Positions 45,954-60,940 of a stretch of DNA of 64,000 nucleotides are shown one piece after another. Below the pieces are notes generated by a model. That model was not told the DNA's origin and ran no database searches. It saw only the letters and a program-made list of their open reading frames with translations. A program made the translations under genes and the position numbers. The DNA is from Cryptosporangium arvum DSM 44712 (GTDB taxonomy: Bacteria > Actinomycetota > Actinomycetes > Mycobacteriales > Cryptosporangiaceae): NCBI RefSeq assembly GCF_000585375.1, contig NZ_KK073874.1, positions 5,301,251 to 5,365,250 on the forward strand, given 5' to 3'. Every line of letters starts with the position of its first letter. Within the stretch, counting starts at the first letter, position 1.

Positions 45954-46748
45954 CTAGGCGGGTGGGCCGGCGTGCAGGGTGAGCCTGGTCCAGGCGCCGA
46001 CGTTCACGGTGGCGCCGTCGGGCAGGGGCACGGGACGCTCGGCTTCGATCGGGTCGGCGCTGCCGTTGAGGTAGGTGCGGTTCGTGGAGCGCAGGTCGAT
46101 GATCGCCCAGGTGCCGTCGGGCTGGGGCACGAGCAGCGCGTGGGTGGCGGAGACGGCGGCGTCCTCGGGGGGTCCGGTCAGGTCGATGTCCGGGTAGATC
46201 CCGCGGGAGCGGCTGCGGCGCCCGATCAGCAGCTGGCGGGGGCCGAGCGGGAAGCGTCGCTCGGGGACGAAGGCCGGGAAGTCGACGTCGGCGGCGTCGG
46301 GTCCGTCGAGCGACTGCATGCGGTCGAAGTAGGCGCGGTCGGCGGTGACGCTCACCCACCACGTCCCGCTCGCCCGCTCCTCCGCCGGAGCCGCGAGGTC
46401 ACCCCAGCCCGGTGCGGGCGTGGCCGGTGCCGGGCCCGGCGGGGCCGAGGACGGCAGGGGCGAAGTCGGCGGGCCCGAAGCCGGAGGGGCCGAAGCCGGA
46501 GGGATCGAAGCCGGAGGGGCCAGGGAATCCGCTCCGCACTCCTCGCAGAACCGACCGGCGAGACCCGTACCGCACTCCGGACACACCGCGGCGCCCCCGG
46601 GCCGCTCCCCCGCAGGCTCACTCGCCGCCGAGCCCGCCCCGGAACCCGCCCCGGAATCCCGCCCGGAGCCCGCCCCGTCCAGCCGGACCCCGCATTCGTC
46701 GCAATAGTCCGTCGCCTCGGACGCATGCCCCTTCGGACACACCACCAT
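45954..46748 (-). CDS. FHA-domain protein with N-terminal zinc ribbons
   Basis: 264 residues. Two zinc-ribbon modules in residues 1-75: CPKGHASEATDYCDECGVRL and CPECGTGLAGRFCEECGADS. A Pro/Ala/Ser linker leads to an FHA domain about residues 165-262 (RQLLIGRRSRSRGIYPDIDL, VSATHALLVPQ, IIDLRSTNRTYLNG), with the phosphothreonine-binding Arg and Ser/Asn in place. It reads phosphorylation, probably by PknG or the soluble kinase. Compared with GarA it lacks the phosphorylatable N-terminal ETT motif. Last gene of the leftward operon. Confidence 0.9.
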   Translation of the reverse strand: MVVCPKGHASEATDYCDECGVRLDGAGSGRDSGAGSGAGSAASEPAGERPGGAAVCPECGTGLAGRFCEECGADSLAPPASIPPASAPPASGPPTSPLPSSAPPGPAPATPAPGWGDLAAPAEERASGTWWVSVTADRAYFDRMQSLDGPDAADVDFPAFVPERRFPLGPRQLLIGRRSRSRGIYPDIDLTGPPEDAAVSATHALLVPQPDGTWAIIDLRSTNRTYLNGSADPIEAERPVPLPDGATVNVGAWTRLTLHAGPPA

Positions 46749-46760
46749 GCCGAAGCCCTC

Positions 46761-48047
46761 TCAGTCGGTCTGCCGCGGCCGGACCTGCTGCGTCTTCCGG
46801 GACGCCACCGCCGCCATCTCGGCGTCGATACTCGCAGCCACCTTCCGCAGCCGCACCGTCCCGGTCCGCTCGTCGACCACGTCCACGACCTTCGCCAGCA
46901 GCTTCGCGGTGTCCTCCCGGCCCGACTCGGCCGCCAGCTGCACCGCCCGCCCGAGCTTCAGCGTCGCCCGGTCCAGGTCACCGGCCTTCTGCGCCTCGGT
47001 CCCCTCCAGGATGGCCTCGGCCAGCTCGGTCTCGTCGGTGTAGTGCGCGACCTGGCGGTTGATCGCCGTCGTCGAGGTCAGGTCGTCCGTCCACACCGCA
47101 CGTACGAGCGACTGCCCGAGCACGTCGTCGCCGTGGACGACCGAGACCCGCGCGGCGAGCACCTCCTCACCGATCGGGTTGGGCTCCAGGTCGATCTTCA
47201 GGTGGTAGTCGCGGCTCTCCGCCCCCCAGGCGCCGATCGGGTACTCGCCCGCACGCTTGCCGGCGTCCCGGCGCCGCCCGGTCAGGTCGATGATCTCCGG
47301 GTGGACCTGCTTGACGAAGCGGATCGTCGCCCCGGCCGGTGTCCACACCCGGAGCAGCACGTCGGCCCGGGTCTTGCCCATCGCCGCCTGCGTCATCGCG
47401 ACGAACTCCGCCGCCAGCGCACCCGGGTCGGTGATGCCCGACGCGGTCCCCAGCAGCTGTTCGGCGACCTTGATCAGGTCACGCGCCATCCAGCCGTCGC
47501 CGACGCCCCGGCTGTCGCAGACGAACAGACCGGCGCAGCGCTCGAGCGCCCGGTCGAACGTCTGCTCGGACTCGCCGTTGGCGCCGTCGGTCAGCAGGAT
47601 GCCGTGGTTGATCGCGGCTCCGTGGCGCCGGAACAGGTCGGCGGCGAGCGTGAGCCAGGTGCCGATCGCGGTGCCGCCGCGCGTCCGCAGGTGCTGGACG
47701 GCCTCGCGGGCCTCGGACCGGTTGGCCGGCGAGGACGTCGCGAGCCGGGTCCGGCCGGGGTAGACCGTCCAGGCCTCGGTGTCGCCGGCCACGATCGCGA
47801 ACGCGACGCCGTCCGGGATCACGTCGATCGCGGCGATCGCGGCCGCCTTCGCGGCGCGGAGCTTCGCACCGCTCATCGAGGCGGAGACGTCGATCATGAT
47901 GACTTCGGCCGCACCGGCCGCGCGGGGAGGAGCCGCGGACACCTCGCCGGACTGCGTGACGGTGACGACCGCGTCCACGGTGCGGCCGCCGGCCGGGAGG
48001 AACTCGTTCTGGTGGGTCTCCACGGTGACCTGCGGTGTGCTGCTCAT
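46761..48047 (-). CDS. VWA-domain (TerY-like) protein
   Basis: 428 residues from ATG 48047. VWA metal site: IMIDVSASMSGAKLRAAKAA with D53-x-S-x-S, then TRGGTAIGTWLTLAADLF (Thr) and HGILLTDGANGESE (Asp). A beta-rich region follows from about 240 (AGATIRFVKQVHPEIIDLTG, LKIDLEPNPIGEEVLAARVS), then helices. VWA plus PP2C plus kinase is the order of the TerY-P triad known from tellurite-resistance systems. It probably binds a partner through the metal site. Coupled to the PP2C by ATGA. Confidence 0.9.
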   Translation of the reverse strand: MSSTPQVTVETHQNEFLPAGGRTVDAVVTVTQSGEVSAAPPRAAGAAEVIMIDVSASMSGAKLRAAKAAAIAAIDVIPDGVAFAIVAGDTEAWTVYPGRTRLATSSPANRSEAREAVQHLRTRGGTAIGTWLTLAADLFRRHGAAINHGILLTDGANGESEQTFDRALERCAGLFVCDSRGVGDGWMARDLIKVAEQLLGTASGITDPGALAAEFVAMTQAAMGKTRADVLLRVWTPAGATIRFVKQVHPEIIDLTGRRRDAGKRAGEYPIGAWGAESRDYHLKIDLEPNPIGEEVLAARVSVVHGDDVLGQSLVRAVWTDDLTSTTAINRQVAHYTDETELAEAILEGTEAQKAGDLDRATLKLGRAVQLAAESGREDTAKLLAKVVDVVDERTGTVRLRKVAASIDAEMAAVASRKTQQVRPRQTD

Positions 48048-48997
48048 GGCAACTCCCCTCCCGGGATGCTGGGTACCGCCAGCAGGGCGACGGCGATGTT
48101 GTCGGCGCCACCCGCGTCCAGCGCGAGCCCGACGAGCTCCCGCGCGGCGGCGGCGGGCGGCGACCCGGCGACGCGGGCGAGGTCGGCCGGGCCGGCCAGG
48201 TAACGGGACAGGCCGTCGGTGCAGAGGAGCAGGAGGCCGGGTCCGTCCGCGGGAACGGCGACGACGTGCGGGCCGACGCCGGGCGCGTCGGCGCCGAGCC
48301 AGCGGGTGAGCGGCGCACCCGGGGTGTCGGGCCGGGCGTCGTCCTCGGTGAGGCACCGCGCCGCGCCGCGGTCGGGGATCCAGTACGCCCGGGAGTCACC
48401 GGCCCAGCTCACGGCCATCCCCTCGCCCGTGACGACGCCGGACACGTAGGTGCAGCTGGGCGCGTCGGCCGGCACCGTGTCGACGAGCGCGTCCACCGCG
48501 GCGAGCGCGTCGTCGAACGCCTCGAGCGAGGCCGCGCCGGGGTCGCCGCCGCCGGTGAGCGCGCGGAGCAGGGCGGGCAGCGCGGCCTCGCAGGCGGCCA
48601 CGGCGGCCGCGTCGGCGCGGGGCGAGCTGGAGACGCCGTCGCAGACGACCGCGACGGGCCCGGCGGGGGTACGCCCGATCGCGACCGCGTCCTCGTTGTG
48701 GTGGCGGTGGGTGCCCCGGTCGGTCAGCGCGGCGACCCCCGGCAACTCCAGCGCGGCCCGGTCCCGCCCGGCTCCGCGGCGGCGCCCGCACTCACCGCAG
48801 TAGCCACCGATCGACGCGTCCGCTCCGCAGTGCGCACACCGCCCGGCCGCCGCCCCCGACCCCAACCAGCCGCCGACGGCGTCCGACCCTCCCGGGGCCG
48901 CCGGGGGTCGCCCGGGCAGATCGGCGCCGCAGGCCTCGCAGAAGACGTCGGTGGGGGCGGCGGGGGCCGCGCAGCGGGTGCAGGTCATCCGGGTCAC
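48044..48997 (-). CDS. PP2C-family Ser/Thr phosphatase with zinc ribbons
   Basis: 317 residues. N-terminal zinc ribbons CTRCAAPAAPTDVFCEACGA and CAHCGADASIGGYCGECGRRR, then the PP2C fold (GTHRHHNEDAVAIGRT, VAVVCDGVSSSPRAD, VSWAGDSRAYWIPD, LLLCTDGLSRYL, GGADNIAVALL). Metal-binding Asp residues of the fold are present. Counteracts the kinases of the cluster. GTG start overlaps the pknG stop. Confidence 0.93.
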   Translation of the reverse strand: MTRMTCTRCAAPAAPTDVFCEACGADLPGRPPAAPGGSDAVGGWLGSGAAAGRCAHCGADASIGGYCGECGRRRGAGRDRAALELPGVAALTDRGTHRHHNEDAVAIGRTPAGPVAVVCDGVSSSPRADAAAVAACEAALPALLRALTGGGDPGAASLEAFDDALAAVDALVDTVPADAPSCTYVSGVVTGEGMAVSWAGDSRAYWIPDRGAARCLTEDDARPDTPGAPLTRWLGADAPGVGPHVVAVPADGPGLLLLCTDGLSRYLAGPADLARVAGSPPAAAARELVGLALDAGGADNIAVALLAVPSIPGGELP

Positions 48998-51237
48998 ACC
49001 AGCGTCCGGGGGCGCACCCGGTTGGCCCGGTCGACGAACGTGATGCGCCGCTCGGCGTCCGGGGCCAGTTTGGCCAGCGTGCGGTACACCGTCTCCAGTC
49101 CGAGCCGGACGTCCCGCTCGGCCAGCCGGCAGCCGAGCACCGTCCCACCGGGAAGCGCCCCACCGCCGGACCGCGCTCCGGTGGTCAGCCAGGTCAGCAC
49201 CGCGGTGAGCACCTCGGCCGACAGCCGGGCCCGCGGCTCGCCGTCGAGCGGCAGCCGTTCGATCCGGGCCGACACGTCGAGGAACCCGGCGGCCGACGGC
49301 GGCGACTCCAGCCGCGCCCGCACCGCCGCGACCTGCGCGGTCAGGTGATGGCTGGACGCGGCCGGGACCTCCTCGAGCACCTCGATCGCGCCCGCGTGGT
49401 CACCCCCGGCGCGCCGGACGCGGGCCAGGCCGAACGCGGCGCTGACGTACGCGTGGTCGCCGGACCACACGCGCTGGTAGCGGGCGAGCGCCGCCTCCGG
49501 TTCCCCGGCCCACTCGGCGGCGACGGCGAGCGCGAGCTGGGGTGCGAGCTCGCCGGGCAGCGCGCCGTACACCGCGTCGAACGAAGCCAGGGCCGCGCGC
49601 GGGTCACCGTCGGTCAGTGCCGCGAGCCCGCGGAGCCAGTCGACGCGCCAGTCCAGCGGCTCGTCGCGCGCCCGCTCGTCGATCAGGGCCCGGGCGGCGG
49701 TGGTCTCGCCGGCCAGGAGGCGCGCGCGGGCCACCGCGATCGGCACCTCGACGCTGTCCGGCGGCGCGCCCCGTGCCGCGGTCGCCAGGTCGGCCGCGCC
49801 CAGGTCCCGGGTGGCGAGCAGGAACGCCGCGCCGGGGTCGGCCGCGTCCACCTGCGGCACCGGTAACGCCGCCGCGATCGCCGGCCCGTCGAAGGCCTCG
49901 GCTCCGGTCGTCGTGGCGAAGGCGGCGCCCTCGTGGGTGAAGCGGGTCGAGGCCGCGGGGCGGGGGGTGCCGTCGGCGGCGCAGAGCACCTGCCGGAGGA
50001 CGCCGAGCAGCTGGTCGGACAGGTCGGCGGCGGAGTCGAAGCGGCGGTCGGGGTCGGGGTCGGTGGCCCGCAGCAGGAGCCGGTGGTAGGACTCCTGCTC
50101 GGCCAGCAGCGGCTGCTCGGCGGGGTCCGGCAACCGGTCGGCGTACCGGCCGGAGAAGCCGCGGAAGTCGAAGCTGAGCACGGCCATCGTGCGCGCGACC
50201 GTGTACAGGTCGGAGCTGATCGACGGCCCGTCGGTGGACACCTCGGGCGCCTGGTACCCGACCGTTCCCCACACCACGCTCACCGCGTCGTCGAGGCGGC
50301 GGACCGCACCGAGGTCGACGAGTTTGAGCCGGTCGTCGCCGTGGATGGCGTTGTCGGGTTTGAAGTCGCAGTACAGCAGCCCGCGCTCGTGCAGGTACCC
50401 GAACGCGGGGAGGATCTCCAGCCCGTAGGCGAGCACCTGGTCGAGCGGCAGGGGTCGGGCGCCGCGGGCCGGGTCGGTGCGGAGTTCACGCAGGGAGCGG
50501 CCGCCGACGTACTCCATCACGAGGTAACCGACGTCGGCGTGCGTCCTCGGGTCGGGGTGCAGCGCGAAGTCGTGGATCGTGACGATCGTCGGGTGGTCGA
50601 CCGAGACGAGGAAGCGGCGTTCGGACACCGCGGCGGCCACGGCGTCGGGGTCGCCGGCGTCGATCAGGCCTTTCAGGACGACCCAGCGGTCGCTGACGTC
50701 GTCGCCGACGTTCTTGTCGCGGGCCAGGTAGATCCAGCCGAGGCCGCCGTAGGCCAGGCAGCCCAGCACCTCGTAGCGTCCGCCGACGAGCGTGCCCGGG
50801 GCCAGACCGGGCACGAACGAGAACGGCGTGCGGCAGGCCGGGCAGAAACCCGCGACGCGGCCGGGCCGGTCGTCCCGGTCGCGCCCGACCGGCCGTCCGC
50901 AGTCGGGGTTGCCGCAGAAGCGACGGTCCTGGGCCACCTGGGGGTCGGCGAGCACGGCGGTCGCCGGATCGCGCAGCGGCACCCGCGGCAGATCGAGCAG
51001 ACCACCACCGAGCCGCGCCCGCGAGGAGCCGGTCCGCCGCGACGCACCGGTCCCCCGCGAGGAACCGGTCCCGCGCGAGGACCCGGTCCCGCGCGACGCA
51101 CCGGTCGCCACGGGCGACGGCCCGCTCGCGCCGGAGGTTCCGACCCCCGCCGCCGGGGCCTTCCGGCCGCACTCGTCGCAGTACCCGTCCGCGTCGTACG
51201 TACCGGGGCATCCCGGCCGCCGGCAGGATCCGCTCAC
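48994..51237 (-). CDS. pknG: PknG-type Ser/Thr protein kinase
   Basis: 747 residues, almost the length of mycobacterial PknG (750). Residues 5-24 form an added zinc-ribbon-like module (CRRPGCPGTYDADGYCDECG), then an SRGTG-repeat linker. Rubredoxin-like part with two CxxC-type knuckles (RFCGNPDCGRP, GFCPACRTPF) precedes the kinase domain: VVLKGL, VMEYVGG, YCDFKPDN and VDLGAVRRL (DLG for DFG). The C-terminal half is TPR-like. It regulates carbon/nitrogen metabolism by phosphorylating FHA-domain partners in mycobacteria. GTG start overlaps the preceding stop. Confidence 0.94.
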   Translation of the reverse strand: MSGSCRRPGCPGTYDADGYCDECGRKAPAAGVGTSGASGPSPVATGASRGTGSSRGTGSSRGTGASRRTGSSRARLGGGLLDLPRVPLRDPATAVLADPQVAQDRRFCGNPDCGRPVGRDRDDRPGRVAGFCPACRTPFSFVPGLAPGTLVGGRYEVLGCLAYGGLGWIYLARDKNVGDDVSDRWVVLKGLIDAGDPDAVAAAVSERRFLVSVDHPTIVTIHDFALHPDPRTHADVGYLVMEYVGGRSLRELRTDPARGARPLPLDQVLAYGLEILPAFGYLHERGLLYCDFKPDNAIHGDDRLKLVDLGAVRRLDDAVSVVWGTVGYQAPEVSTDGPSISSDLYTVARTMAVLSFDFRGFSGRYADRLPDPAEQPLLAEQESYHRLLLRATDPDPDRRFDSAADLSDQLLGVLRQVLCAADGTPRPAASTRFTHEGAAFATTTGAEAFDGPAIAAALPVPQVDAADPGAAFLLATRDLGAADLATAARGAPPDSVEVPIAVARARLLAGETTAARALIDERARDEPLDWRVDWLRGLAALTDGDPRAALASFDAVYGALPGELAPQLALAVAAEWAGEPEAALARYQRVWSGDHAYVSAAFGLARVRRAGGDHAGAIEVLEEVPAASSHHLTAQVAAVRARLESPPSAAGFLDVSARIERLPLDGEPRARLSAEVLTAVLTWLTTGARSGGGALPGGTVLGCRLAERDVRLGLETVYRTLAKLAPDAERRITFVDRANRVRPRTLV

Positions 51238-52361
51238 GCCGCACCCCCTCCCGGCCCGGCGAGGGACCGCTGATACGCCACGACCGCGCGGGTCGACGCG
51301 GCCAGATCGCACGGCGCCGTCCACAGCAGCGCCCGCGCCGCCTCGTACGCCGCCAGCACCGCGGGATGCTCGCCCACCCCGGTGCGCACCGCTTTCGCCC
51401 GGTAGGAGTCCAGCCGTCCGCGCAGTTCCTCCCGCCGGGCCAGCAGCCCGTCGGCGAACTCACGGCGCTGCGCCACCGCGTTCAGCGCGGCGCCGACCGC
51501 CTCCTCCAGGGCCGGGAGCGCCTGGTCGAGCGCGGCCGCGTCGAGCCGCTCGAGCGTGTCGAGCCGCCGCCGCAGGCCGGCCGACGCGACCCCGTCCGGA
51601 GGCAACCGCGGGTCGTGGATCCTGGCCAGGGCCCGTGCGTTCGCGTCGCGCACGCCGTGCTCGTCGGACTCCAGCCGGGTCAGCGCCCCGGCCAGCGCGG
51701 CCCGCCGGGCGCCGTACCCGGCTCGCCTGGTCGCCAGGGCACGCAGCCGCTCGACCGTCGCTTCGGTCGTCGCGATCAGCGAGGCCGCCGCGGTGGCGTG
51801 CAGATCGATGCCGAGCGGGTCGGCCGCGGCCCGCCCGGCCAGGTCACGCAGGGCCGCCGCGACCGAGGCCTCGCCCGTCCCGGCGGCGCGCGACGCGTCG
51901 TCCAGCGCGGCGTCGAGCCGACGCAGCGTGTCGACGGTCGCGAGCCGTTCGCCGACGTCGGCGAGCGCGGCCCGGACCTCCCGGCATTCCTGTTCGAGCC
52001 ACTCGCCGACCCGCGCCACCGGCACCCCACGCACGGCGTCGGGGACGTCCGGGCCGGTGAGGGGGCCGAGCAGCCGCGCGGAGAGCGACGTCAGCTGGGT
52101 ACGGCTCCACCGGTCGCCCGGCGGACGGGCGGTGTCCAGGGCTTCGCCGAACGCGGCGAAGGACGCCCAGAGCACGTCGATGCGCAGGCGCAGGCGCTCC
52201 CAGAACTCCCGGGTCACACCGTCCAGCGACGTCACCCGCAGGTACGCGAGCCCACCGTCGGAGCCGTCCATCGCCAGCAGCGCCTCGGCGATGCGGCTGC
52301 GTTCGTCGGCCAGCTCGGTCAGCAGCCGGGTGATCGACGCCCGGTTCGGCGCGGTGACCAC
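51234..52361 (-). CDS. Alpha-helical protein between glnH and pknG
   Basis: 375 residues from GTG 52361. Almost wholly helical with long Ala/Arg/Leu/Glu heptads (ALLAMDGSDGGLAYLRVTSL, EQECREVRAALADVGERLAT, RLRALATRRAGYGARRAALA), no membrane segment and no recognised domain. Between the sensor genes glnX/glnH and pknG, so it could be an adaptor. Coupled to pknG by GTGA. Confidence 0.72.
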   Translation of the reverse strand: MVTAPNRASITRLLTELADERSRIAEALLAMDGSDGGLAYLRVTSLDGVTREFWERLRLRIDVLWASFAAFGEALDTARPPGDRWSRTQLTSLSARLLGPLTGPDVPDAVRGVPVARVGEWLEQECREVRAALADVGERLATVDTLRRLDAALDDASRAAGTGEASVAAALRDLAGRAAADPLGIDLHATAAASLIATTEATVERLRALATRRAGYGARRAALAGALTRLESDEHGVRDANARALARIHDPRLPPDGVASAGLRRRLDTLERLDAAALDQALPALEEAVGAALNAVAQRREFADGLLARREELRGRLDSYRAKAVRTGVGEHPAVLAAYEAARALLWTAPCDLAASTRAVVAYQRSLAGPGGGAA

Positions 52362-52366
52362 GGCCG

Positions 52367-53338
52367 TCAGTCCCGGTAGACCGCGGCCGGCGTGGGCGCG
52401 GGGCCCAGCGCGTTCAGCCAGCGCCGGTAGCTGCGCGCCAGTGCGCCGCCGGACCGCAGCCGCTCGAGGACCCCGTTGGTGAACCGCACCAGGTCGACGT
52501 TCTCCTTCGGGATGGCGACGCCGGACGGCTCGCTGCTCAGCGGCGGCCCGACCATCTCGGTGCCCGGGTCCTGGGCGACGAGCCCGAGCAGAATCGTGTC
52601 GTTCGTGGAGACCGCGTCGACCTGGCCCTGCTGGAGCAGCACGAGGCAGTCGATCGTGCTGTCGGTGGTCACCGGCCCGATCCCGGGGATCGTGGCGATC
52701 TTGGCGATGCTCGTGCTGCCCTTGGTGGCGCAGACCTTGCCCCGCCGCGCGGCGACGTCGTCGAGCGAGGTGATCCCGGACCCGCGGTCGACCACGATTC
52801 GCTGCCGGGCGCGCAGGTACTCGGTCGAGAAGTTGACCTGCTGCCACCGGGAGCAGTTCATCGTGACGGTGCGGATCACCATGTCCACTTCGCCCCGCTG
52901 CAGCACCGGGATGCGGTCCTGCGTGGTGATGTGCCGGAACTGCACCTTGGCCGGGTCGCCGAAGAGCGCCCTGGCGATCTCCCGGGCCAGGTCGATCTCG
53001 AACCCGGCCAGGTCACCGGTGGTCCGGTCGCGGTAGGCCAGCAGGTAGGCGTTCTGGTCGATGCCGACGACCAGCCGGCCGCGCTGCACGATCCGCGCCA
53101 TCGTGCTGCCGGCCGGCATCCGGCCCGGCGCCGGCATCGACGCCGGCGGCCGGTAGCTGGCCAGCGGGTCGCACCCGGGCTGCGGCGACGGGCTCGGCAC
53201 CACGGCCGGGTCGGCGACGTTCTGCGGCCGGGGCCGGAGCGGCGCGGGGTCGTCGGTCCCGGCCCCGGGCCGCGCGGAGGAGCAGGCGGTGCAGGCGGTC
53301 AGCACGAGCACGGCCAGCGCGAGCAGGAGGCGCCTCAT
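52367..53338 (-). CDS. glnH: GlnH-type extracellular amino-acid-binding lipoprotein
   Basis: 323 residues. Lipoprotein signal RRLLLALAVLVLTAC. Substrate-binding fold: RLVVGIDQNAYLLAYRDRTT, GFEIDLAREIARALFGDP, RGEVDMVIRTVTMNCSRW, KVCATKGSTSIAKIATIPG. In Mycobacterium GlnH binds aspartate/glutamate and signals through GlnX to PknG; here the same three genes lie together. The usual transport permease is absent. ATG overlaps the glnX stop. Confidence 0.9.
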   Translation of the reverse strand: MRRLLLALAVLVLTACTACSSARPGAGTDDPAPLRPRPQNVADPAVVPSPSPQPGCDPLASYRPPASMPAPGRMPAGSTMARIVQRGRLVVGIDQNAYLLAYRDRTTGDLAGFEIDLAREIARALFGDPAKVQFRHITTQDRIPVLQRGEVDMVIRTVTMNCSRWQQVNFSTEYLRARQRIVVDRGSGITSLDDVAARRGKVCATKGSTSIAKIATIPGIGPVTTDSTIDCLVLLQQGQVDAVSTNDTILLGLVAQDPGTEMVGPPLSSEPSGVAIPKENVDLVRFTNGVLERLRSGGALARSYRRWLNALGPAPTPAAVYRD

Positions 53339-54642
53339 CGGTACTCCCCGATCCGGTTGCGGGTGCCGAGCACCACCGCGGCGAGAGCGATCAGACCGAG
53401 CGCGAGCACGGCCACCCGGGCGCCGGCCAGGTCGGCGGCAGCGTCGTCGGCGCGGGCGTCGAACCAGCGGCCGGCGGCGTCGGCGTACTCGTCGAGCGCG
53501 CGGTCGAGCTGCTCGAACGTCGCGGACGGCGGCCCCGCCGCGAGCCGGACGGCCTCGGCGTACCGGCCGCTGTCGTCGAGCGCGCGGACGTCGGCGTGGA
53601 GCGTGCGCCACCGTGCGGCCAGGCCGGCGATGCGCCGGACCTGGTCGCGGTCGGCGCCGGGTGCGGCCGCCGCGTCGCCGAGGAGCCCGGTGCGGCCGTC
53701 GTTTCCGATCAACCCGTTCAGCATCTCGGCGTAATGGCGCTCGTTGGCCGCGCCGTCACCGCGTGCGATCAACGTCAGCGACTCGTCCGCGCGGGCCTGC
53801 AGCACCACGACCCGGGCCTCGGCCAGCCGGATGAACTGCTCCGACCCGGTTTCCCGGCCGATGTTCACGTTCCCGACCGCCGACCCCACCGCCACGACGA
53901 ACCACACCAGCGCGACGACGGTCGCCGCCGACGCCACCGCCAGGCCCGGGTTGACCAGCCGGTTCGTGCGCCGGGTGAGGAACACCTGGGCACCGGCCAG
54001 CGCGAGCAGCAGCGCGAGCCCGACGATGAGCACGAGCACCGGGAAGTCGGCGCCGCTGCGCTGGGCGTCGGCCAGCCGGCCGGTCTCCAGCGTGAACAGC
54101 CGCTGCGCGGCCGGGAGCAGCGTGTCGCGCATCAACCCGGAGGCTTCACGCAGGTAGGCGGCGCCGAGCGGCAGCTGCTGGCGGTCGTAGGCCCGTGCGG
54201 TCTCGACCAGTCCGGTGTAGACCGGTAGCCCGGTGGACAGCGCCCGGAGCTGGTTCTCGCTGGCGCGGCCGGGGTCGCTCGCGCTGCTGGTGGCCCGCAG
54301 CGCCGACGCGATCGCCGACCCGGCCGTGGCGACGTCGTCGAGGTAGCGGGTACGCAGCGCGGACGTCTCGGCGCCGGTGCCGAGGAACGCCGCCGCGGCG
54401 GTGGCGTCGGCATCGGAGAGCGAGCGGTAGATGTCCAGCGCGTGCACCGACAGCGGCCCGCTGACCACGCGCACGTCGTCGACCAGGGCGGCGCGCCCGC
54501 CGACCGCGAGCAGCCCCGCGACGCTCCACACCAGGCCGAGACCGACGAGCGCGACCGTGATCGTCACCAGCAGACCCGGCGTGGTACGCGCGCGCCGGGC
54601 CGCCGGTGAGGCCGAGATCCGAGTGGGTATTTCCAGCCGCAC
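53335..54642 (-). CDS. glnX: GlnX-like sensor membrane protein
   Basis: 435 residues from GTG 54642. Three or four membrane segments; a first helix at about residues 25-50 (LVTITVALVGLGLVWSVAG), a helical extracellular domain (about 50-200), a helix pair (FPVLVLIVGLALLLALAGAQ, LAVASAATVVALVWFVVAVG), a second helical extracellular domain, and a last helix (VAVLALGLIALAAVVLG). In mycobacteria GlnX transmits GlnH state to PknG. There is no kinase domain in it. Assignment relies on gene order and topology. Confidence 0.8.
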   Translation of the reverse strand: MRLEIPTRISASPAARRARTTPGLLVTITVALVGLGLVWSVAGLLAVGGRAALVDDVRVVSGPLSVHALDIYRSLSDADATAAAAFLGTGAETSALRTRYLDDVATAGSAIASALRATSSASDPGRASENQLRALSTGLPVYTGLVETARAYDRQQLPLGAAYLREASGLMRDTLLPAAQRLFTLETGRLADAQRSGADFPVLVLIVGLALLLALAGAQVFLTRRTNRLVNPGLAVASAATVVALVWFVVAVGSAVGNVNIGRETGSEQFIRLAEARVVVLQARADESLTLIARGDGAANERHYAEMLNGLIGNDGRTGLLGDAAAAPGADRDQVRRIAGLAARWRTLHADVRALDDSGRYAEAVRLAAGPPSATFEQLDRALDEYADAAGRWFDARADDAAADLAGARVAVLALGLIALAAVVLGTRNRIGEYR

Positions 54643-54741: not shown

Positions 54742-54818
54742 CGTGGTGTGTAGGTGACGTGTAGCGGCGCCGAACACTCTGGACGCTCACGGCCGGCACG
54801 CGGCGACGGGGCGCGGTG

Positions 54819-55970
54819 ATGGACTCAGTGCTAGCGGCGTTACGGGAGAGCGCGACACCCGCTCTCTACCGGCGGAACATGTTCCGCCTGACCGGGCTGC
54901 CCACCGGCGCCGACCGGCGCACCGTCCGGCAGCGACGGCAGCGGGTCCTCACGCTGCTCGAGGTCGGAGCCGATCCGGGTGGGGAGGGCGGTGACCCGCA
55001 GGACGTCGCCCGCGCGTTCGACCTGATCCTCGGCGACCCGCGCCGGCGCCTGGTCGACGAGCTGTTCTGGTACTGGGACGCCGACACCACCGCCTGCTCC
55101 TGCCCCAGCACCCTGCACCGCGACCACGACGAGGCGGTGCTCTCCCACTGCGAGGTGCTCGAGCGGGAGGCGCGCAGCGCGCAGCTGTCCCCCGGCGAGC
55201 TGCGCGAGCTCGACGAGGACTGGGCCGACGCCGCCGAGGAGTGGGCGTCGGTGCTGCGCCGCGTCGCGTTCTGGGACCACGTCCGCCACCGGATCGAGGC
55301 GCTCGACGACAAGCAGCTCGACGAGTCCGCGATCGACGTGATCCGCGACGAGCTCCCGCTCGTGCTGGTCAAGCCGCTGGTCCTGCTCGCGGCCGGCTCA
55401 CCGGCCCGCCCGGCGACCCTCCGCGGCGCGGCCCTCGGCTGGCCCGCGCCCCGCGACCAGGTGCTCGACCTGCTCGAACAGTCGGCCGAGCCGCTCTACG
55501 ACGAGGTCAGCGCCGCCCTGCGGGAGGCGCGGGAAGCGCTCGAGGGCAGCAGGCCGCTCGCCGCCGCGACCGCGCTGACGAGGTCCGCGGTGCCGCGGCT
55601 CGAACGCCTGGACGCCCTGGCCCCGGCGGCCGACCACCGCCGCACCAGCCGCACCCGCAACGACGTCGCGATCGCGTTCAACAACTGTGCCGTCCAGGAC
55701 ATCGACACCCGCGGCGCGCCCGCGGAGCAGTCCGCACGCCAGTGGCTCACCACCGCGAAGGGCCTCGCGACCGACGCCGGCACCCGCACCGCGATCGCGC
55801 AGAACACCGAGTACGTGGGTCAGGTGGTGCTCGCCGCCCGGCTGCGCGGCGTCGGCCGCGAGTTCCAGCGGGCACCGGCTCCGCAGCCCCGGACCTCCGG
55901 CGCCGGATGTGTGCTGTGGCTGGTGGTGGTCGCGCTGGTCGTGATCTTCCTGATCGCGGTGAACCGCTGA
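54819..55970 (+). CDS. J-like-domain membrane-anchored protein
   Basis: 383 residues from ATG 54819 (GTG 54816 also possible). The N-terminus (PALYRRNMFRLTGLPTGADR, then VARAFDLILGDPRRRLVDEL) has the helix order of J-domain-like proteins, but no HPD motif is visible. A long helical middle is followed by a C-terminal membrane helix (GCVLWLVVVALVVIFLIAVN). As first gene of an operon with Hsp70 and a GrpE-like protein, it likely recruits Hsp70 to the membrane, though loss of HPD makes classical ATPase stimulation doubtful. Confidence 0.68.
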   Translation: MDSVLAALRESATPALYRRNMFRLTGLPTGADRRTVRQRRQRVLTLLEVGADPGGEGGDPQDVARAFDLILGDPRRRLVDELFWYWDADTTACSCPSTLHRDHDEAVLSHCEVLEREARSAQLSPGELRELDEDWADAAEEWASVLRRVAFWDHVRHRIEALDDKQLDESAIDVIRDELPLVLVKPLVLLAAGSPARPATLRGAALGWPAPRDQVLDLLEQSAEPLYDEVSAALREAREALEGSRPLAAATALTRSAVPRLERLDALAPAADHRRTSRTRNDVAIAFNNCAVQDIDTRGAPAEQSARQWLTTAKGLATDAGTRTAIAQNTEYVGQVVLAARLRGVGREFQRAPAPQPRTSGAGCVLWLVVVALVVIFLIAVNR

Positions 55971-57013
55971 TGGCGCTGGTCCGCAGCGGTGAGCGGATCG
56001 GCGACTCGCTCGTCGTCGACCGGATGCTCGGGGAGGGCGCCTTCGCCGAGGTGCACCGCGTCGAGCACCGCTACCTCGGCTGGCAGGCGATGAAGGTGTT
56101 CAAGCGGGTCGCGTCCGAGGCCGAGACCCGCGAGCTGCTCGACGAGGCGCGTCTGCTCTCGACGCTCGGGCACCGGCACGTCATCCGGCTCTTCGACGTC
56201 GGCACGCTGCCGACCGCCGAAGGCCGGCGCGGGTACTTCACGATGGAGTACGTGCCCGGCGGCACGCTCGAGCGGTTCGTCGCCGCGCACCGCCCGGCGG
56301 TGCCGACGGACGTGGCCGCCGAGGTGATGACGCAGATCGCGGCCGGTCTCGCGGTGGCGCACGGCCAGGACCCTCCGGTGCTGCACCGCGACCTGACGAC
56401 GGCGAACATCCTGGTCGGCTACGACGGCGCCGGCCTGCGGATCCGGATCAGCGACTTCGGGCTGGCCAAGCGGGCCGACCCGTTCACGCGGCTGGCCAGC
56501 GCCCAGGGCACGTACGCGTTCATGGCGCCCGAGGTGATGCGCTCCGGCGGGTACTCCTGCGCCGGGGACGTCTGGTCGGTGGGCGTCCTCGCGTACCTCA
56601 TGCTCACCGACCACCTGCCCTACGACGACGGGGCGCCGTTCGCGCCGCACCACGCGCGGTTCACGCGACCGCTGCTGCCGCCGAGCCGGTACAACGAGAC
56701 CGTCGACGAGGAGCTGGACCGGATCGTCACCGGGGCGCTCACCGTCGACCCGTGGCTGCGCACCCCGACCGCCCGGGAGCTCGGCGACGCCCTGGCCGCG
56801 CGCCGCGTGCGGGCTCCGGTGCCCGCGGTCACGACGGCCGAACCGAGCCCGCGGGCCCGGCGGCTGGTCGGCGACGCACACGAGCTGGCGCGCACCCCGG
56901 GCGGGCTGCAGCGCGCCGCGGATCTCCTGGAGGAAGCCATCGGTCTCTCCCCGCGCCTGGCCGGAGAACACGCCCACACGCTGATCCGCTGGCGGCGAGG
57001 AGTGGTGATGTGA
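55970..57013 (+). CDS. Soluble Ser/Thr protein kinase
   Basis: 347 residues from ATG 55970. Kinase domain residues 8-275: glycine loop LGEGAFAEVHRVEH, AMKVFKR (Lys), MEYVPGG, catalytic HRDLTTANILV, DFGLAK, APEVMRSGGYSCAGDVWSVG. A short helical C-terminus; no membrane segment. HRDLTTAN has Thr in place of the usual Lys, which may reduce phosphate transfer. It is encoded within the Hsp70 operon, so Hsp70, J-like or GrpE-like proteins are candidate substrates. Confidence 0.93.
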   Translation: MALVRSGERIGDSLVVDRMLGEGAFAEVHRVEHRYLGWQAMKVFKRVASEAETRELLDEARLLSTLGHRHVIRLFDVGTLPTAEGRRGYFTMEYVPGGTLERFVAAHRPAVPTDVAAEVMTQIAAGLAVAHGQDPPVLHRDLTTANILVGYDGAGLRIRISDFGLAKRADPFTRLASAQGTYAFMAPEVMRSGGYSCAGDVWSVGVLAYLMLTDHLPYDDGAPFAPHHARFTRPLLPPSRYNETVDEELDRIVTGALTVDPWLRTPTARELGDALAARRVRAPVPAVTTAEPSPRARRLVGDAHELARTPGGLQRAADLLEEAIGLSPRLAGEHAHTLIRWRRGVVM

Positions 57014-57541
57014 AGCCCCTGATCCGTCTGCGGGCCGGGCTGCGGCAGCGCAGACAAACCCGCGAGCTTCCGCATCGCGCCGCCGGACGACGACGAGGTC
57101 ATCGCGCTCCTGACCCGGCTCGTCGGGACGGTCCCCGACGAGCCGGCGCCCGACGAGCCGGCGCCCGGGAACGATCCACCGGACGACAAGGCGCTCGCCG
57201 ACGCGGCCACGAACCTCTGGCGGGCCCAGCGGCGGCTGGCCCGCGACGCCCGGACCGCCCGCGACCGGCAGACCGGCCGCTACCTGCGCTCGTGCCGCGA
57301 CGCGCTGAGCGACGCCGGCCTGGTCATCCAGGAACACGACGGCGACGCGTTCCACTCCGGCCGGTCGATCGAGGTGCTGGCCGTCCAGGAAGAGGAGGGC
57401 CGGACCACCGAGGTCGTCCTCGAGACCGTCCGCCCGACCGTGTACCTGCACGACCGCCGCATCCAGATGGGCCAGGTCATCGTCGCCGGCCCGGCCGTGA
57501 CGACAACGAGGAGCGACCATGCCGGCCAGCAGCACGATTGA
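57010..57541 (+). pseudogene. GrpE-like nucleotide exchange factor, apparent frameshift
   Basis: The GTG at 57010 gives KPLIRLRAGLRQR, then the frame is wrong. One extra A at about 57052 would place DKPASFRIAPPDDDEVIALL in frame, followed by WRAQRRLARDARTARDRQTG, LRSCRDALSDAGLVIQEHDG, SIEVLAVQEEEGRTTEVVLE and PTVYLHDRRIQMGQVIVA, the GrpE-type end. The other frame closes at 57541, overlapping hsp70 by 23 bp. Either a real inactivation or a base error. GrpE releases ADP from Hsp70. Confidence 0.62.
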
Positions 57542-60002
57542 CGTCGGGATCGACCTGGGCACCACGAACAGCGCCATCGCGGTCGTCACGAACGGCGAGG
57601 CCGTCATCGTGAAGAACAACGACGGCTGGGACACCACGCCCTCCGCGGTATGGATGCCGAAGGCCGACGTCGTGCACGTCGGGCGTCGCGCCCGGGAGCG
57701 GGTCGAGTCCGACCCGGACAACACGGCGGCCGAGTTCAAGCAGGAGATGGGGCTCGCCGACGCGCGCCACCCGTTCGCCCGGGCCGGGCGGGAGCTCACG
57801 CCCCCGCAGCTGTCGGCCGAGGTGCTCACCTCGCTGCGCGCCGACTTCGCGCAGCGGCTCGACACCGCTCCCCCGCCGTTCGCGGTGATCACCGTGCCGG
57901 CCGCGTTCACGCTGAACCAGAACCAGGCGACGGTCGAGGCCGCGACGCTGGCCGGGTTCGAGCCCGGCTGCCCGCTGGTGCAGGAACCGACGGCGGCCGC
58001 GTTCGCGTACGGCTTCCAGGACGCGGCCGACCGCGGGTACTGGCTGGTGTTCGACTTCGGCGGCGGCACGTTCGACGCGGCGATCGTCAACAAGCGCGAC
58101 GGTGACCTGCGCGTGCTCAACCACGCCGGCGACTCGTTCCTGGGCGGCAAGCTCATCGACTGGGCGATCGTCGAGAAGGTACTGGCGCCGGCGGCGGGCC
58201 GCGCGCTCGGCTTCGCCGACTTCCGGCGGGACAACGCGGCCTGGCGCGCGAACTTCGCGAAGCTCAAGCTCGCCGCCGAGGAGGCGAAGATCCAGCTCTC
58301 CCGCACCGACCGCGTCGACGTGGACGCGGTGCTGCGCGGCCCGAACGGCGAGGAGGAGGAGTTCGAGTACGCGCTGCGCCGGGACGAGCTGGACTCGATC
58401 GCGGAGCCGTACTACGTCCGCGCGATCAACCTGTGCCGCTCCGCGCTGCGTGAGGCCTCGCTGGAGCCCGCGGACGTCGACCGGCTCCTGCTCGTCGGCG
58501 GCGTCACGCTCTCGCCCGGGCTGCGTGAGCGGCTGGCCGACCCGCGGCACGGCATCGGCATCGCGCTGGACACCAGCCTCGACCCGAGCACCGTCGTCGC
58601 GCGCGGCGCCGCGATCTTCGCCAGCACGATCCGCCGCCCGGCCACGACGCCGACCCGCGCCGCGTCCCCGGGCGAGTTCCTGGTCGAGCTGGCGTTCGAG
58701 CCCAGCGTCACGACGACGACGCCCACGGTCGGCGGGCGGCTGCGCGGCGCGGGCACGCCCGACTGGACGTCCTACGGCGTCACGCTGACCAACCCGGACG
58801 GACACCCGCCGTTCCGGTCCGGTCTCATCCGCCTGAACGCCAACGGCGCGTTCGCCACCGAGGTCGACCTCGACCCGCACACGACCTCGCACTTCACCGT
58901 CGCGCTGACCGACTCCGGCGGCACCCGCCGGCCACTGACCCCGGACACGTTCTCGATCACCCACCGGGACGTGGAGTTCGGCGGCGTGCGGCTGGCGCAC
59001 TCGCTCGGCATCCAGCTCGCCGACCGCGCGTTCGCCGCGATCCTGCGGAAAGGCGAGACGCTGCCGGCGCGGGCCCGCGAGGTGTTCCACACGTCCGGGG
59101 CGCTGCAGCGCGATCAGGCCGACGCGGTGATCCGGATCCCGATCGTCCAGGGTGAACGCCCGCGCGGCGACCGCAACCGGGAGGTCGGGGTGCTCGAGAT
59201 CCGCCCGCGCGACGTGCGGATCGACCTGGCGGCGGGCACCGAGGTGGAGGTGACGTTCGAGGTCGACGCGTCCAGCCTGGTCACCGTCGTCGCCGACGTG
59301 CCGCTGGTGCAGGCGCAGTTCGAGGCCGAGATCAACCTCGACGAGGTGCGCACGGCCAGCGTCCAGAGCCTCCAGGAGCAGCTCGCCGAGGTCGACCGGC
59401 GCCTCGAGCGGCTCCGCGAGGCCGCGCCGGCCGGCGGTGGCCGCGAGCAGCTGGACCGGCTGGACGACGAGAGCGCGCTGGACACCGTCCGCGACCAGGT
59501 CGGGGCCGCCCGCGTCGACCGGGGCGCGGCGGCGGCCGCCGAGGAACGCCTGCGCGACCTGCAGGCCGATCTGGACGACATCGAGGAGAAAGCGCAGCTG
59601 CCGGAACTCGTCCGTCAGCTGCGCGGGGTGCTCGACGAGGCCGCCGGGACCGTGGACGCCGCCGGCGACGCCGCCGACCGCCGGGAGCTCGCCGACCTGC
59701 GCCGCCGGGCCGACACCGCGATCGACGCCGGGGACGTCGCGGCGGTGCGCGCGGCGATCGATCGCACGTCGTCGTTCGTGATCGAGCTCGAACGGCGCCG
59801 GCCGGACTGGCCGGTCCAGCTGTTCTTCGCGCTGGAGGCGATGGTGCCGCGCTCGGCGGCCGCCGAGGGGTTGCTCTCCGAGGGGCGCCTGGCGATCGCG
59901 AACCAGGACGCGACCGCGCTCACCGCGGTCAACCAGCGCCTGGTGCGGCTGCTGCCGAAGGAGGCGCAGGACCAGGTCATCGGCTTGCGGTCGGCGTCGT
60001 GA
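57519..60002 (+). CDS. Hsp70 (DnaK-family) protein with long C-terminus
   Basis: 827 residues, about 200 longer than DnaK. Nucleotide-binding domain: IDVGIDLGTTNSAIAVV, VPAAFTLNQNQATVEAATLA, YWLVFDFGGGTFDAAIV, LLLVGGVTLSPGLRERLADP. Linker near 375, then a beta-rich SBD-like region (400-600) and a long Ala/Arg/Asp-rich helical C-terminus (HLRQLRGVLDEAAGTVDAA-like helices) instead of the DnaK lid. It is not the housekeeping DnaK. In an operon with kinase, J-like, GrpE-like and TPR proteins, it probably serves a specialised assembly. Confidence 0.93.
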   Translation: MPASSTIDVGIDLGTTNSAIAVVTNGEAVIVKNNDGWDTTPSAVWMPKADVVHVGRRARERVESDPDNTAAEFKQEMGLADARHPFARAGRELTPPQLSAEVLTSLRADFAQRLDTAPPPFAVITVPAAFTLNQNQATVEAATLAGFEPGCPLVQEPTAAAFAYGFQDAADRGYWLVFDFGGGTFDAAIVNKRDGDLRVLNHAGDSFLGGKLIDWAIVEKVLAPAAGRALGFADFRRDNAAWRANFAKLKLAAEEAKIQLSRTDRVDVDAVLRGPNGEEEEFEYALRRDELDSIAEPYYVRAINLCRSALREASLEPADVDRLLLVGGVTLSPGLRERLADPRHGIGIALDTSLDPSTVVARGAAIFASTIRRPATTPTRAASPGEFLVELAFEPSVTTTTPTVGGRLRGAGTPDWTSYGVTLTNPDGHPPFRSGLIRLNANGAFATEVDLDPHTTSHFTVALTDSGGTRRPLTPDTFSITHRDVEFGGVRLAHSLGIQLADRAFAAILRKGETLPARAREVFHTSGALQRDQADAVIRIPIVQGERPRGDRNREVGVLEIRPRDVRIDLAAGTEVEVTFEVDASSLVTVVADVPLVQAQFEAEINLDEVRTASVQSLQEQLAEVDRRLERLREAAPAGGGREQLDRLDDESALDTVRDQVGAARVDRGAAAAAEERLRDLQADLDDIEEKAQLPELVRQLRGVLDEAAGTVDAAGDAADRRELADLRRRADTAIDAGDVAAVRAAIDRTSSFVIELERRRPDWPVQLFFALEAMVPRSAAAEGLLSEGRLAIANQDATALTAVNQRLVRLLPKEAQDQVIGLRSAS

Positions 60003-60940
60003 CCGCGACCGCGCGCGCCACGCCGGAGCACCGGCTCACGCTGCACCGGGCCCGCTCCGCGGCGTACGTCGGCGACCTGGAGACCGCGTCGGCGCTCCTG
60101 GCCGAGCTGGACCCGGGCGGGGACGGGCCGCACCCCGGCGAACCGGGTGCGGACGCGTTCGATCTGCGCGCCCGGGTGCGTGCCCAGCGGGGTGAGTACG
60201 GCGCGGCCGACGAGGACTGGGCGCGGGTGCTCGCGCTCCGGCCCGGCGACCCGGACGCGGTGGCCGGGCGGGCCACGCTGGCCCGGCTCGCCGCCGGGCG
60301 GCGGGTCCGTCCGGTGTACACGCCGGCCCGTGCGGTGGCGCTGCTCGCGGCCGCGCTACTCGTGGCGTCGACGACGGCAGTGGTGTGGGTGGGGACCGAC
60401 CGCGGGGAGGCGACCGGCGACCCGGCCGCGGCGGGGTTGCGGCGCGAGGTCGCGACGCTGCGGGCGGAGCGGGACGCGCGCGCGGCCGCGGAGGCGCGGC
60501 AGCGGGAGGCGGGCGCGGCGGCCGCGGCGCGGCACCGGGAGCGGCTGACCGCTGTGGCCTCGGCGTTCGCGGGACTGCCCGGGGTGCGGGTGGAGCAGCG
60601 GTCCGCCGACGTGCGGCTGGTGTTCACCTCGGGGGTGTTCGCTTCCTCGACCGAGCTGACCCCGGCGGCCGGGCCGGTGCTGGCCGCGGTCGGCCGCCGG
60701 CTGAGGACGCTGGAGGTGGTGACGACGGTCGTCGGGCACACGGTCGCGGTGCCGGGCGGGCGCACCAGCGGCGGGTCGGTGGTCGGGTACGGGCGGGCGC
60801 AGGTGGCGGCGCGGGAGCTGGCGGTGGCGTCCGGACGGCCGCTGGCGCAGTTCGCGCTGGTGAGCGCGGAACAGTCGGAGGGCCCGTTCCCGGACGCCCG
60901 TCGCAACCGGACGGTGACGATCCTGCTGCGCCCGGAGTGA
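59999..60940 (+). CDS. TPR protein with membrane helix and OmpA-like C-terminal domain
   Basis: 313 residues; GTG 59999 overlaps the hsp70 stop. Residues 1-95 TPR-like (LRARVRAQRGEYGAADEDWARVLAL), then a helix (AVALLAAALLVASTTAVVWVG), a charged coiled coil (REVATLRAERDARAAAEARQRE), and an OmpA/MotB-like domain (VFASSTELTPAAGPVLAAVG, VVGHTVAVPG, ARELAVASGRP, NRTVTILLRP). The OmpA-like part could contact peptidoglycan, tying the chaperone system to the envelope. Confidence 0.8.
   Translation: MTATARATPEHRLTLHRARSAAYVGDLETASALLAELDPGGDGPHPGEPGADAFDLRARVRAQRGEYGAADEDWARVLALRPGDPDAVAGRATLARLAAGRRVRPVYTPARAVALLAAALLVASTTAVVWVGTDRGEATGDPAAAGLRREVATLRAERDARAAAEARQREAGAAAAARHRERLTAVASAFAGLPGVRVEQRSADVRLVFTSGVFASSTELTPAAGPVLAAVGRRLRTLEVVTTVVGHTVAVPGGRTSGGSVVGYGRAQVAARELAVASGRPLAQFALVSAEQSEGPFPDARRNRTVTILLRPE

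Follow-up and report, generated by a model that had tools for sequence, protein, structure and literature searches.

The window analysed here, a 64,000-nucleotide stretch of the Cryptosporangium arvum DSM 44712 genome (contig NZ_KK073874.1, positions 5,301,251 to 5,365,250), carries on its minus strand, from 54642 to 45954, seven genes in the order glnX-glnH-X-pknG-PP2C-VWA-FHA. The operon is real, conserved, and ordinary within its group and, as far as our literature searches reach, undescribed as a whole. Much work has been done on the bacterial Ser/Thr kinase PknG, chiefly known from mycobacteria and corynebacteria. We tentatively favour, with slightly less than even confidence, a reading in which the locus encodes a self-contained actinobacterial phospho-signalling system of seven components, with phosphate written onto, read from, and erased from the tail of the VWA protein. 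Should the seven-gene form also prove ancestral, four partners of this kinase would have been overlooked: a dedicated phosphatase, a reader with an FHA domain, a VWA protein, and a helical protein belonging to no family.

The first gene, glnX (53335-54642), encodes a membrane transducer of the GlnX family that passes the broad model NF058618 (380.6 bits, cut-off 250) and lies far below the cut-off of the equivalog NF041460 (179.8 bits against 780). It overlaps by 4 bp with glnH (52367-53338), which encodes a lipoprotein-type solute-binding sensor (SBP_bac_3, PF00497, E 1.2e-26). After a gap of 5 bp comes gene X (51234-52361; also labelled ‘Mid’), predicted to encode an all-helical protein of 375 aa and a candidate scaffold; Pfam and NCBIfam scans gave no Pfam family over the cut-off and no NCBIfam family. 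Gene X overlaps by 4 bp with pknG (48994-51237), whose product has a zinc-ribbon-like N-terminus and a linker rich in Ser, Thr, Gly, and Arg, followed by rubredoxin, kinase, and TPR domains (PknG_rubred PF16919, Pkinase PF00069, and PknG_TPR PF16918, each over its cut-off). Residues 75-745 of this protein align with PDB 2pzi at 506.7 bits. The PP2C phosphatase (48044-48997; PP2C_2 PF13672, E 3.9e-15) has an N-terminal double zinc ribbon (PF12773). The VWA protein (46761-48047) combines VWA_3 and VWA_3_C domains (PF13768, PF18571), the former with a metal-ion-dependent adhesion site (MIDAS), and ends in an S-x-x-T tail. Last comes the FHA protein (45954-46748; PF00498, E 3.5e-11), a candidate phospho-Thr reader with zinc-ribbon-like motifs at its N-terminus. 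The six junctions measure -4, +5, -4, -4, -4, and +12 bp (negative values are overlaps), lengths that depend on the start codons chosen for each open reading frame. Given such tight junctions, the seven genes are most likely one operon and would share a single transcript. A sequence-only reading had placed a signalling operon at 45954-54642, with a GlnX-GlnH-PknG chain joined to phosphatase, VWA, and FHA genes; its coordinates proved exact, and the domains and their order were borne out. The seventh gene, X, was absent from that reading.

The PknG_TPR domain (PF16918) occurs in 110 of 296 genomes of the class. It exceeds the cut-off in 108, including the window's own, and the two genomes below the cut-off were left out. 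For the other 107 genomes, we scored the best PknG locus over up to 20 kb with profiles built from the window proteins, counting matches of at least 50 bits; eighteen of these loci were shorter than 15 kb, ended by contig ends. The mycobacterial type corresponds to one family, f2, which we take to be Mycobacteriaceae. Outside f2, the 80 best PknG loci include PP2C in 69 cases, VWA in 64, FHA in 66, X in 68, glnX in 72, and glnH in 74. Inside f2, PP2C, VWA, FHA, and X were each found in 0 of 27 best loci, and glnX and glnH each in 26.

We also scanned genome contigs with the VWA alignment and examined the best 80 of 152 relatives, a set that is seeded by VWA and so uninformative on loci that lack it. 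Streptomyces makes up over half of these 80 loci, and the remainder come from Dactylosporangium, Actinoplanes, Phytohabitans, Nocardia, Actinomadura, Nonomuraea, Kibdelosporangium, Saccharothrix, and others. PP2C is present in seventy-eight, FHA in seventy-six, PknG in seventy-four, glnX in sixty-nine, X in sixty-seven, and glnH in sixty-six. The exact gene order of the window recurs in 56/80, and nine loci place glnX downstream of FHA, with or without glnH. All seven genes are present in each of three congeners (the PP2C of L103 is split over two frames), and a fourth other member of the family has five of the seven on a 5.7-kb contig, with X as a fragment only. The two halves of the operon are thus found together elsewhere, and the refuting condition named in the sequence-only reading, that they never co-occur, does not hold: both PP2C and VWA accompany PknG in 59/80 best PknG loci outside f2, and the halves co-occur in most of the best 80 of 152 VWA-seeded loci. 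Beyond the class, one genome of another class carried PknG among the 296 genomes of the phylum searched. Its locus (L236) keeps FHA, VWA, PP2C, PknG, and X together, with glnH and a partial glnX adjoining on the opposite strand. Apart from the seven families, no gene was common to more than 5 of 31 representative loci in a clustering of limited sensitivity that joined only 17 PP2Cs; the sole unlabelled cluster spanning more than three loci comprised five and resembles a shadow frame.

Two further groups of PknG-like kinases turned up in these loci. Seven divergent PknG paralogues without PP2C (L065, L070, L073, L080, L081, L082, L232) have VWA and FHA in 5/7 loci, and in all seven glnX-glnH is oppositely oriented. 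Three of them (L065, L081, L082) have a further glnX-glnH pair on their opposite flank, which may provide two sensors per kinase. Distant second PknG-like kinases also occur in Streptomyces-type genomes (L087-L091, L093, L261, L262). Four of these (L091, L093, L261, L262) adjoin a VWA gene; glnH and PP2C were not seen at the eight loci, and glnX left only traces of 30 bits or less.

The individual proteins have kept the positions taken to be functionally important in the kinase, PP2C, and FHA families. In PknG, the catalytic residues K189, D291, N296, and D308 are the commonest residues in at least 95% of 106 sequences from PP2C/VWA loci. The PP2C metal-site residues D93, E102, D103, D120, and G121 are likewise present in at least 95% of 88 sequences, and G176, R177, S200, H203, and N223 of the FHA phospho-Thr pocket are kept in 90-95% of 110. 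The VWA MIDAS residues D52, S54, S56, T125, and D153 are invariant in sixteen diverse members, as are S415 and T418 of the tail, close to the C-terminus (in a numbering that starts at the second residue of the protein). Intact kinase, phosphatase, MIDAS, and FHA motifs accompany a gene order that recurs across many genera.

The VWA tail follows the phosphatase. In a set of 153 distinct VWAs, from which identical copies and rows without a complete 3' end had been dropped, S-x-[KRQVA]-T occurs within the last 45 residues of 134/139 VWAs from PP2C loci versus 3/14 from loci without PP2C; shuffled tails carry the motif in 10.6%. Four of the five exceptions at PP2C loci read S-T-L-T or S-T-M-T, and the fifth (L128) has a shifted motif. 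The three motif-bearing VWAs at loci without PP2C are L200, L230, and L188, the last on a contig that starts at VWA. At the third residue after the Thr, the 134 tails have V in 102, T in 12, I in 7, M in 5, A in 5, and L in 3, so that V, I, L, or M stands there in 117/134; an aliphatic residue at +3 is preferred by some FHA domains. The N-terminus of PknG also tracks the form of the operon. A zinc-ribbon-like motif is present in 131/139 PknGs with PP2C at the locus versus 9/46 without, and two or more TQ pairs are present in 2/139 versus 25/46, counts that come from regular expressions and are approximate, with redundant rows and with some ‘without’ loci being cut contigs.

Based on these patterns, the signal would enter through the lipoprotein GlnH, which would bind a small extracellular ligand, and GlnX would carry it through the membrane to the PknG TPR domain. 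PknG would then phosphorylate the VWA protein on its near-invariant S-x-x-T tail. The phospho-Thr of this tail, with Val, Ile, Leu, or Met at +3 in most cases, could be bound by the FHA protein, and PP2C would remove the phosphate. Gene X may provide an elongated helical scaffold. The MIDAS of the VWA protein would hold or release a protein partner, and so the module may let nutrient supply decide whether a VWA-FHA complex assembles. It probably works alongside the known GarA/2-oxoglutarate dehydrogenase branch, given that the genome encodes a GarA family protein at another site. For mycobacterial PknG, recruitment of the FHA protein GarA is attributed to the phosphorylated N-terminus (PMC12189002), which offers a model for FHA recruitment here. 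The VWA tail is a directly testable candidate substrate.

The closest known system is the GlnX-GlnH-PknG(-GarA/OdhI) pathway of mycobacteria and corynebacteria (PMC6069109, PMC9769921, PMC8546545). It shares with the window a GlnX-family protein, a sensor related to 6h1u, a PknG of rubredoxin-kinase-TPR layout, an operon of glnX, glnH, and pknG (predicted here from sequence), and a GarA family protein in the genome. The window differs in adding X, PP2C, VWA, and FHA. Its PknG has the zinc-ribbon-like N-terminus and the Ser/Thr/Gly/Arg linker, and the repeated TQ is mostly missing in this form; its GlnH pocket is altered, and its GlnX is far from the equivalog. A search of titles, abstract openings, and selected passages, with most subscription papers beyond its reach, yielded no published description of the seven-gene form. 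The main text of Bhattacharyya et al. contains none of the terms phosphatase, PP2C, vWA, and von Willebrand.

One alternative is that the locus works through the conventional PknG pathway, with GarA as the sole important substrate, PP2C resetting GarA or PknG, and VWA, FHA, and X serving as scaffolds or localisers. We consider this rather unlikely. A GarA/OdhI family protein is indeed encoded elsewhere in the window's genome (G000:C1:5871202; 203.7 bits, cut-off 200), with DVTSTMI in its N-terminal part, and PknG acts on OdhI in C. glutamicum (PMC9769921). At E 1e-25 the family is found in 291/296 genomes of the class, 34 of them over the curated cut-off, and none of the five genomes without it is PknG-positive. 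GarA does not, however, track PknG (291 versus 110 of 296 genomes), whereas PP2C, VWA, FHA, and X do so outside f2. The mycobacterial type manages without these four proteins, the VWA tail motif goes with PP2C, and the two operon forms have different PknG N-termini.

Several observations weigh against a self-contained seven-part module. GarA family proteins are present regardless of PknG and could be its main substrate. Among census loci of at least 15 kb, two (G194, G227) have glnX-glnH-pknG only, without PP2C, VWA, FHA, or X. Three others (G061, G168, G176) lack VWA and retain PP2C and FHA; one (G075) retains PP2C and is missing VWA, FHA, and X; and five genomes of family f18 (G049, G245, G277, G285, G293) pair PknG with VWA without PP2C. 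Another locus of this length, near a contig end (G033), has no VWA, FHA, glnX, or glnH. No added part is therefore strictly required. Other conserved residues adjoin the VWA tail, which may therefore serve for docking or have a structural role, and the association of the tail with PP2C rests on few events, since most VWAs from loci lacking PP2C are divergent paralogues. On the sensor side, the contacts between GlnH and GlnX and between GlnX and PknG have the status of proposals also in the model species (PMC8546545, PMC9769921).

The ligand sensed by the module may differ between lineages. The best PDB match of the window GlnH is M. tuberculosis GlnH (6h1u, E 1.8e-70), in which seven positions contact Asp: R147, K161, T162, S164, R169, W232, and D250 (PMC6069109). 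At these positions the window protein has R, R, T, T, R, T, and N, against R, K, T, S, R, W, and D, and so does not match the M. tuberculosis set; two changes are conservative and two (at W232 and D250) are changes in kind. T232 and N250 are found in 4/4 GlnHs of the genus (the window and 3/3 congeners). We aligned 52 GlnH rows, including the window and the M. tuberculosis yardstick, from a subset of the fetched PknG loci after dropping rows below 150 bits or 180 aa. R147 is kept in 52/52 rows, and W232 occurs in 8/52, namely five f2 loci, L043, L100, and the yardstick itself. Given the altered contact positions, the specificity of the window GlnH is likely different from that of the Asp/Glu-specific GlnH, and an amino acid or dicarboxylate is still a plausible ligand because R147 and R169 are retained. 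PknG-linked GlnHs within Actinomycetales were predicted in 2018 to be Asp/Glu binders (PMC6069109). Asp/Glu binding by this GlnH had also been named as a check in the sequence-only reading, and such a ligand becomes doubtful in this genus with 4/7 contact positions altered, two of them in kind. The varied pockets suggest that the nutrient sensed differs by lineage.

We modelled gene X with AlphaFold2 from 37 sequences (the window's and the 36 less redundant of 66 named-locus rows above 150 bits), obtaining an all-helical structure with pLDDT 94.2 and pTM 0.75. Coiled-coil family matches are scattered, with no Pfam family in more than 9/37 homologues. The C-terminus, possibly a contact site, holds many of the invariant residues (R310, E312-G315, L346, P350-L353). 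No Foldseek match to this model reached E 0.001, the best being EzrA at E 1.2. Kinship with EzrA (VIA-align Z 11.3) or with the DnaK lid (Z 7.7) was rejected, both scores being within the range of helical models that have no known kinship. The weak alignment to the DnaK lid covers the conserved C-terminal bundle, residues 307-375 (Z 7.7, rmsd 2.7, 65 residues), and likely reflects a generic helical bundle.

The phosphatase, VWA, and kinase genes had also suggested the triad known as TerY-P. TerY carries a TerY_C domain; none was found at E up to 0.1 in 16/16 VWAs of this operon family (PF15616), and membership was rejected on this account. A genome-wide search for TerY_C was without a match, as were its controls. 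TerY-P itself consists of a VWA protein, a PP2C, and a kinase that ends in a zinc ribbon, without FHA, and the metal-sensing phosphorylation switch that it would form is presented as hypothetical (PMC11090510). The likeness seen by the sequence-only reading therefore holds for the PP2C beside VWA and kinase, and for the zinc ribbons on several partners. It fails elsewhere: the window VWA is of the VWA_3/VWA_3_C type, the kinase is a PknG that has its metal motifs at the N-terminus and TPR in place of a zinc ribbon at the C-terminus, FHA is foreign to the triad, and X, GlnX, and GlnH are additional. It is improbable, on this evidence, that the operon is a TerY-P-like stress or defence switch in which metal or redox state is sensed by the zinc-ribbon proteins PknG, PP2C, and FHA, with VWA acting on an effector. 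Kinase, PP2C, and vWA do recur in actinobacterial GAP1-N2 GTPase systems, whose third theme has a kinase (often with a zinc ribbon), a PP2C, and a stand-alone vWA adjoining (Kaur et al. 2020, PMC7159879); the section on that theme does not name GlnX/GlnH, FHA, or PknG. Membership of the window operon in these systems is not supported, with no extra neighbour common to more than 5/31 representative loci, in a clustering of limited sensitivity and with no GTPase profile run. The lack of a further common neighbour equally counts against a metal or defence switch, as does PADLOC, which gave no defence-specific match for nine window proteins (GlnX, GlnH, and the GrpE-like protein not included): two kinases matched kinase models, and there was one weak PP2C match.

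To place the mycobacterial operon, we used a PknG tree of 71 sequences built by a quick method, with SH-aLRT support and a midpoint root for drawing only. The thirteen reduced f2 PknGs form one clade (support 100), and its sister (joint support 100) consists of L100 and five Nocardia PknGs from PP2C-VWA-FHA loci, four of which have all seven genes. The remaining rows are mostly from long operons, and some inner branches are weak. Because the f2 clade nests beside PknGs of long Nocardia operons, the mycobacterial three-gene operon looks like a secondarily reduced descendant of the seven-gene form; transfer into Nocardia is a possible alternative to loss in the mycobacterial line. The reduced locus of G194 (L057) pairs with the seven-gene L054 (support 99), which points to a further loss. 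More speculatively, ancestral PknG may have been one part of a seven-part module for sensing, writing, reading, and erasing: an exchangeable binding protein, re-tuned in each lineage, would act through GlnX and a helical scaffold on phosphorylation of the VWA tail, which FHA would read and a dedicated PP2C erase, and the textbook pathway would be its stripped remnant. We regard this as a possibility that leans towards doubtful. If the seven-gene form is ancestral, laboratory strains of Streptomyces would be a safe setting in which to study how a Ser/Thr kinase is driven by a binding protein outside the cell.

L100 (G259:C144) comes from an f2 genome that has its own three-gene operon elsewhere. 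The extra seven-gene copy lies on a 25.7-kb contig and may represent transfer, a plasmid, or contamination.

As the sequence-only reading had noted, the operon is divergent from a plus-strand Hsp70 module; the first gene of this module starts 173 bp from the start of glnX. This module (54816-60940) consists of a ‘J-like’ gene (54816-55970; the name is a label only, without a Pfam family), a Ser/Thr kinase, Kin2 (55970-57013), a GrpE-like gene (about 57010-57541; likewise a label only), Hsp70 (57519-60002), and an ‘OmpA-like’ gene (59999-60940; again a label, without a Pfam or NCBIfam match). Kin2 and Hsp70 were assigned by domain scan. The PknG operon had been proposed to control an Hsp70-dependent process through this neighbour. 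The closeness of the divergent starts makes co-regulation possible in this one strain, and the Hsp70 operon has a Ser/Thr kinase of its own, but control of the module by the PknG operon is very improbable given its distribution. J-like, GrpE-like, Hsp70, or OmpA-like genes were found by profile in 0/107 PknG loci; the generic kinase Kin2, to which L080 gave one 71-bit match, was not taken as evidence of the module. By tblastn, the module is absent from the PknG loci of the three congeners, apart from one weak Kin2 match inside pknG of L104. Its proteins had no match at E 1e-8 in the best 80 of 152 VWA loci, most of which cover about 1-3 kb beyond glnX, and the J-like protein had none at E 1e-6 in the four other genomes of the family. 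Conversely, the J-like protein was matched in 10/249 genomes of the order, the window's own included, and the nine other loci, all fetched, have Hsp70 and a GrpE-like gene in 9/9 cases and the PknG operon in 0/9, PknG profile matches there being weak kinase matches. The Hsp70 neighbourhood is local to this genome.

No start is listed for the window's GrpE-like gene in the frame that holds its conserved body. Set against its homologues in L107-L111, the gene shows a break in its reading frame close to the start, by mutation or sequencing error, a further point against the proposed control. The Hsp70 module otherwise looks like a patchy, stand-alone unit (the window, L116, and L107-L115), with a Ser/Thr kinase in 5/9 and an OmpA-like gene in 4/9 of the fetched J-like loci. 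A second Hsp70, 44% identical to that of the module, is encoded in this genome at G000:C1:4075855.

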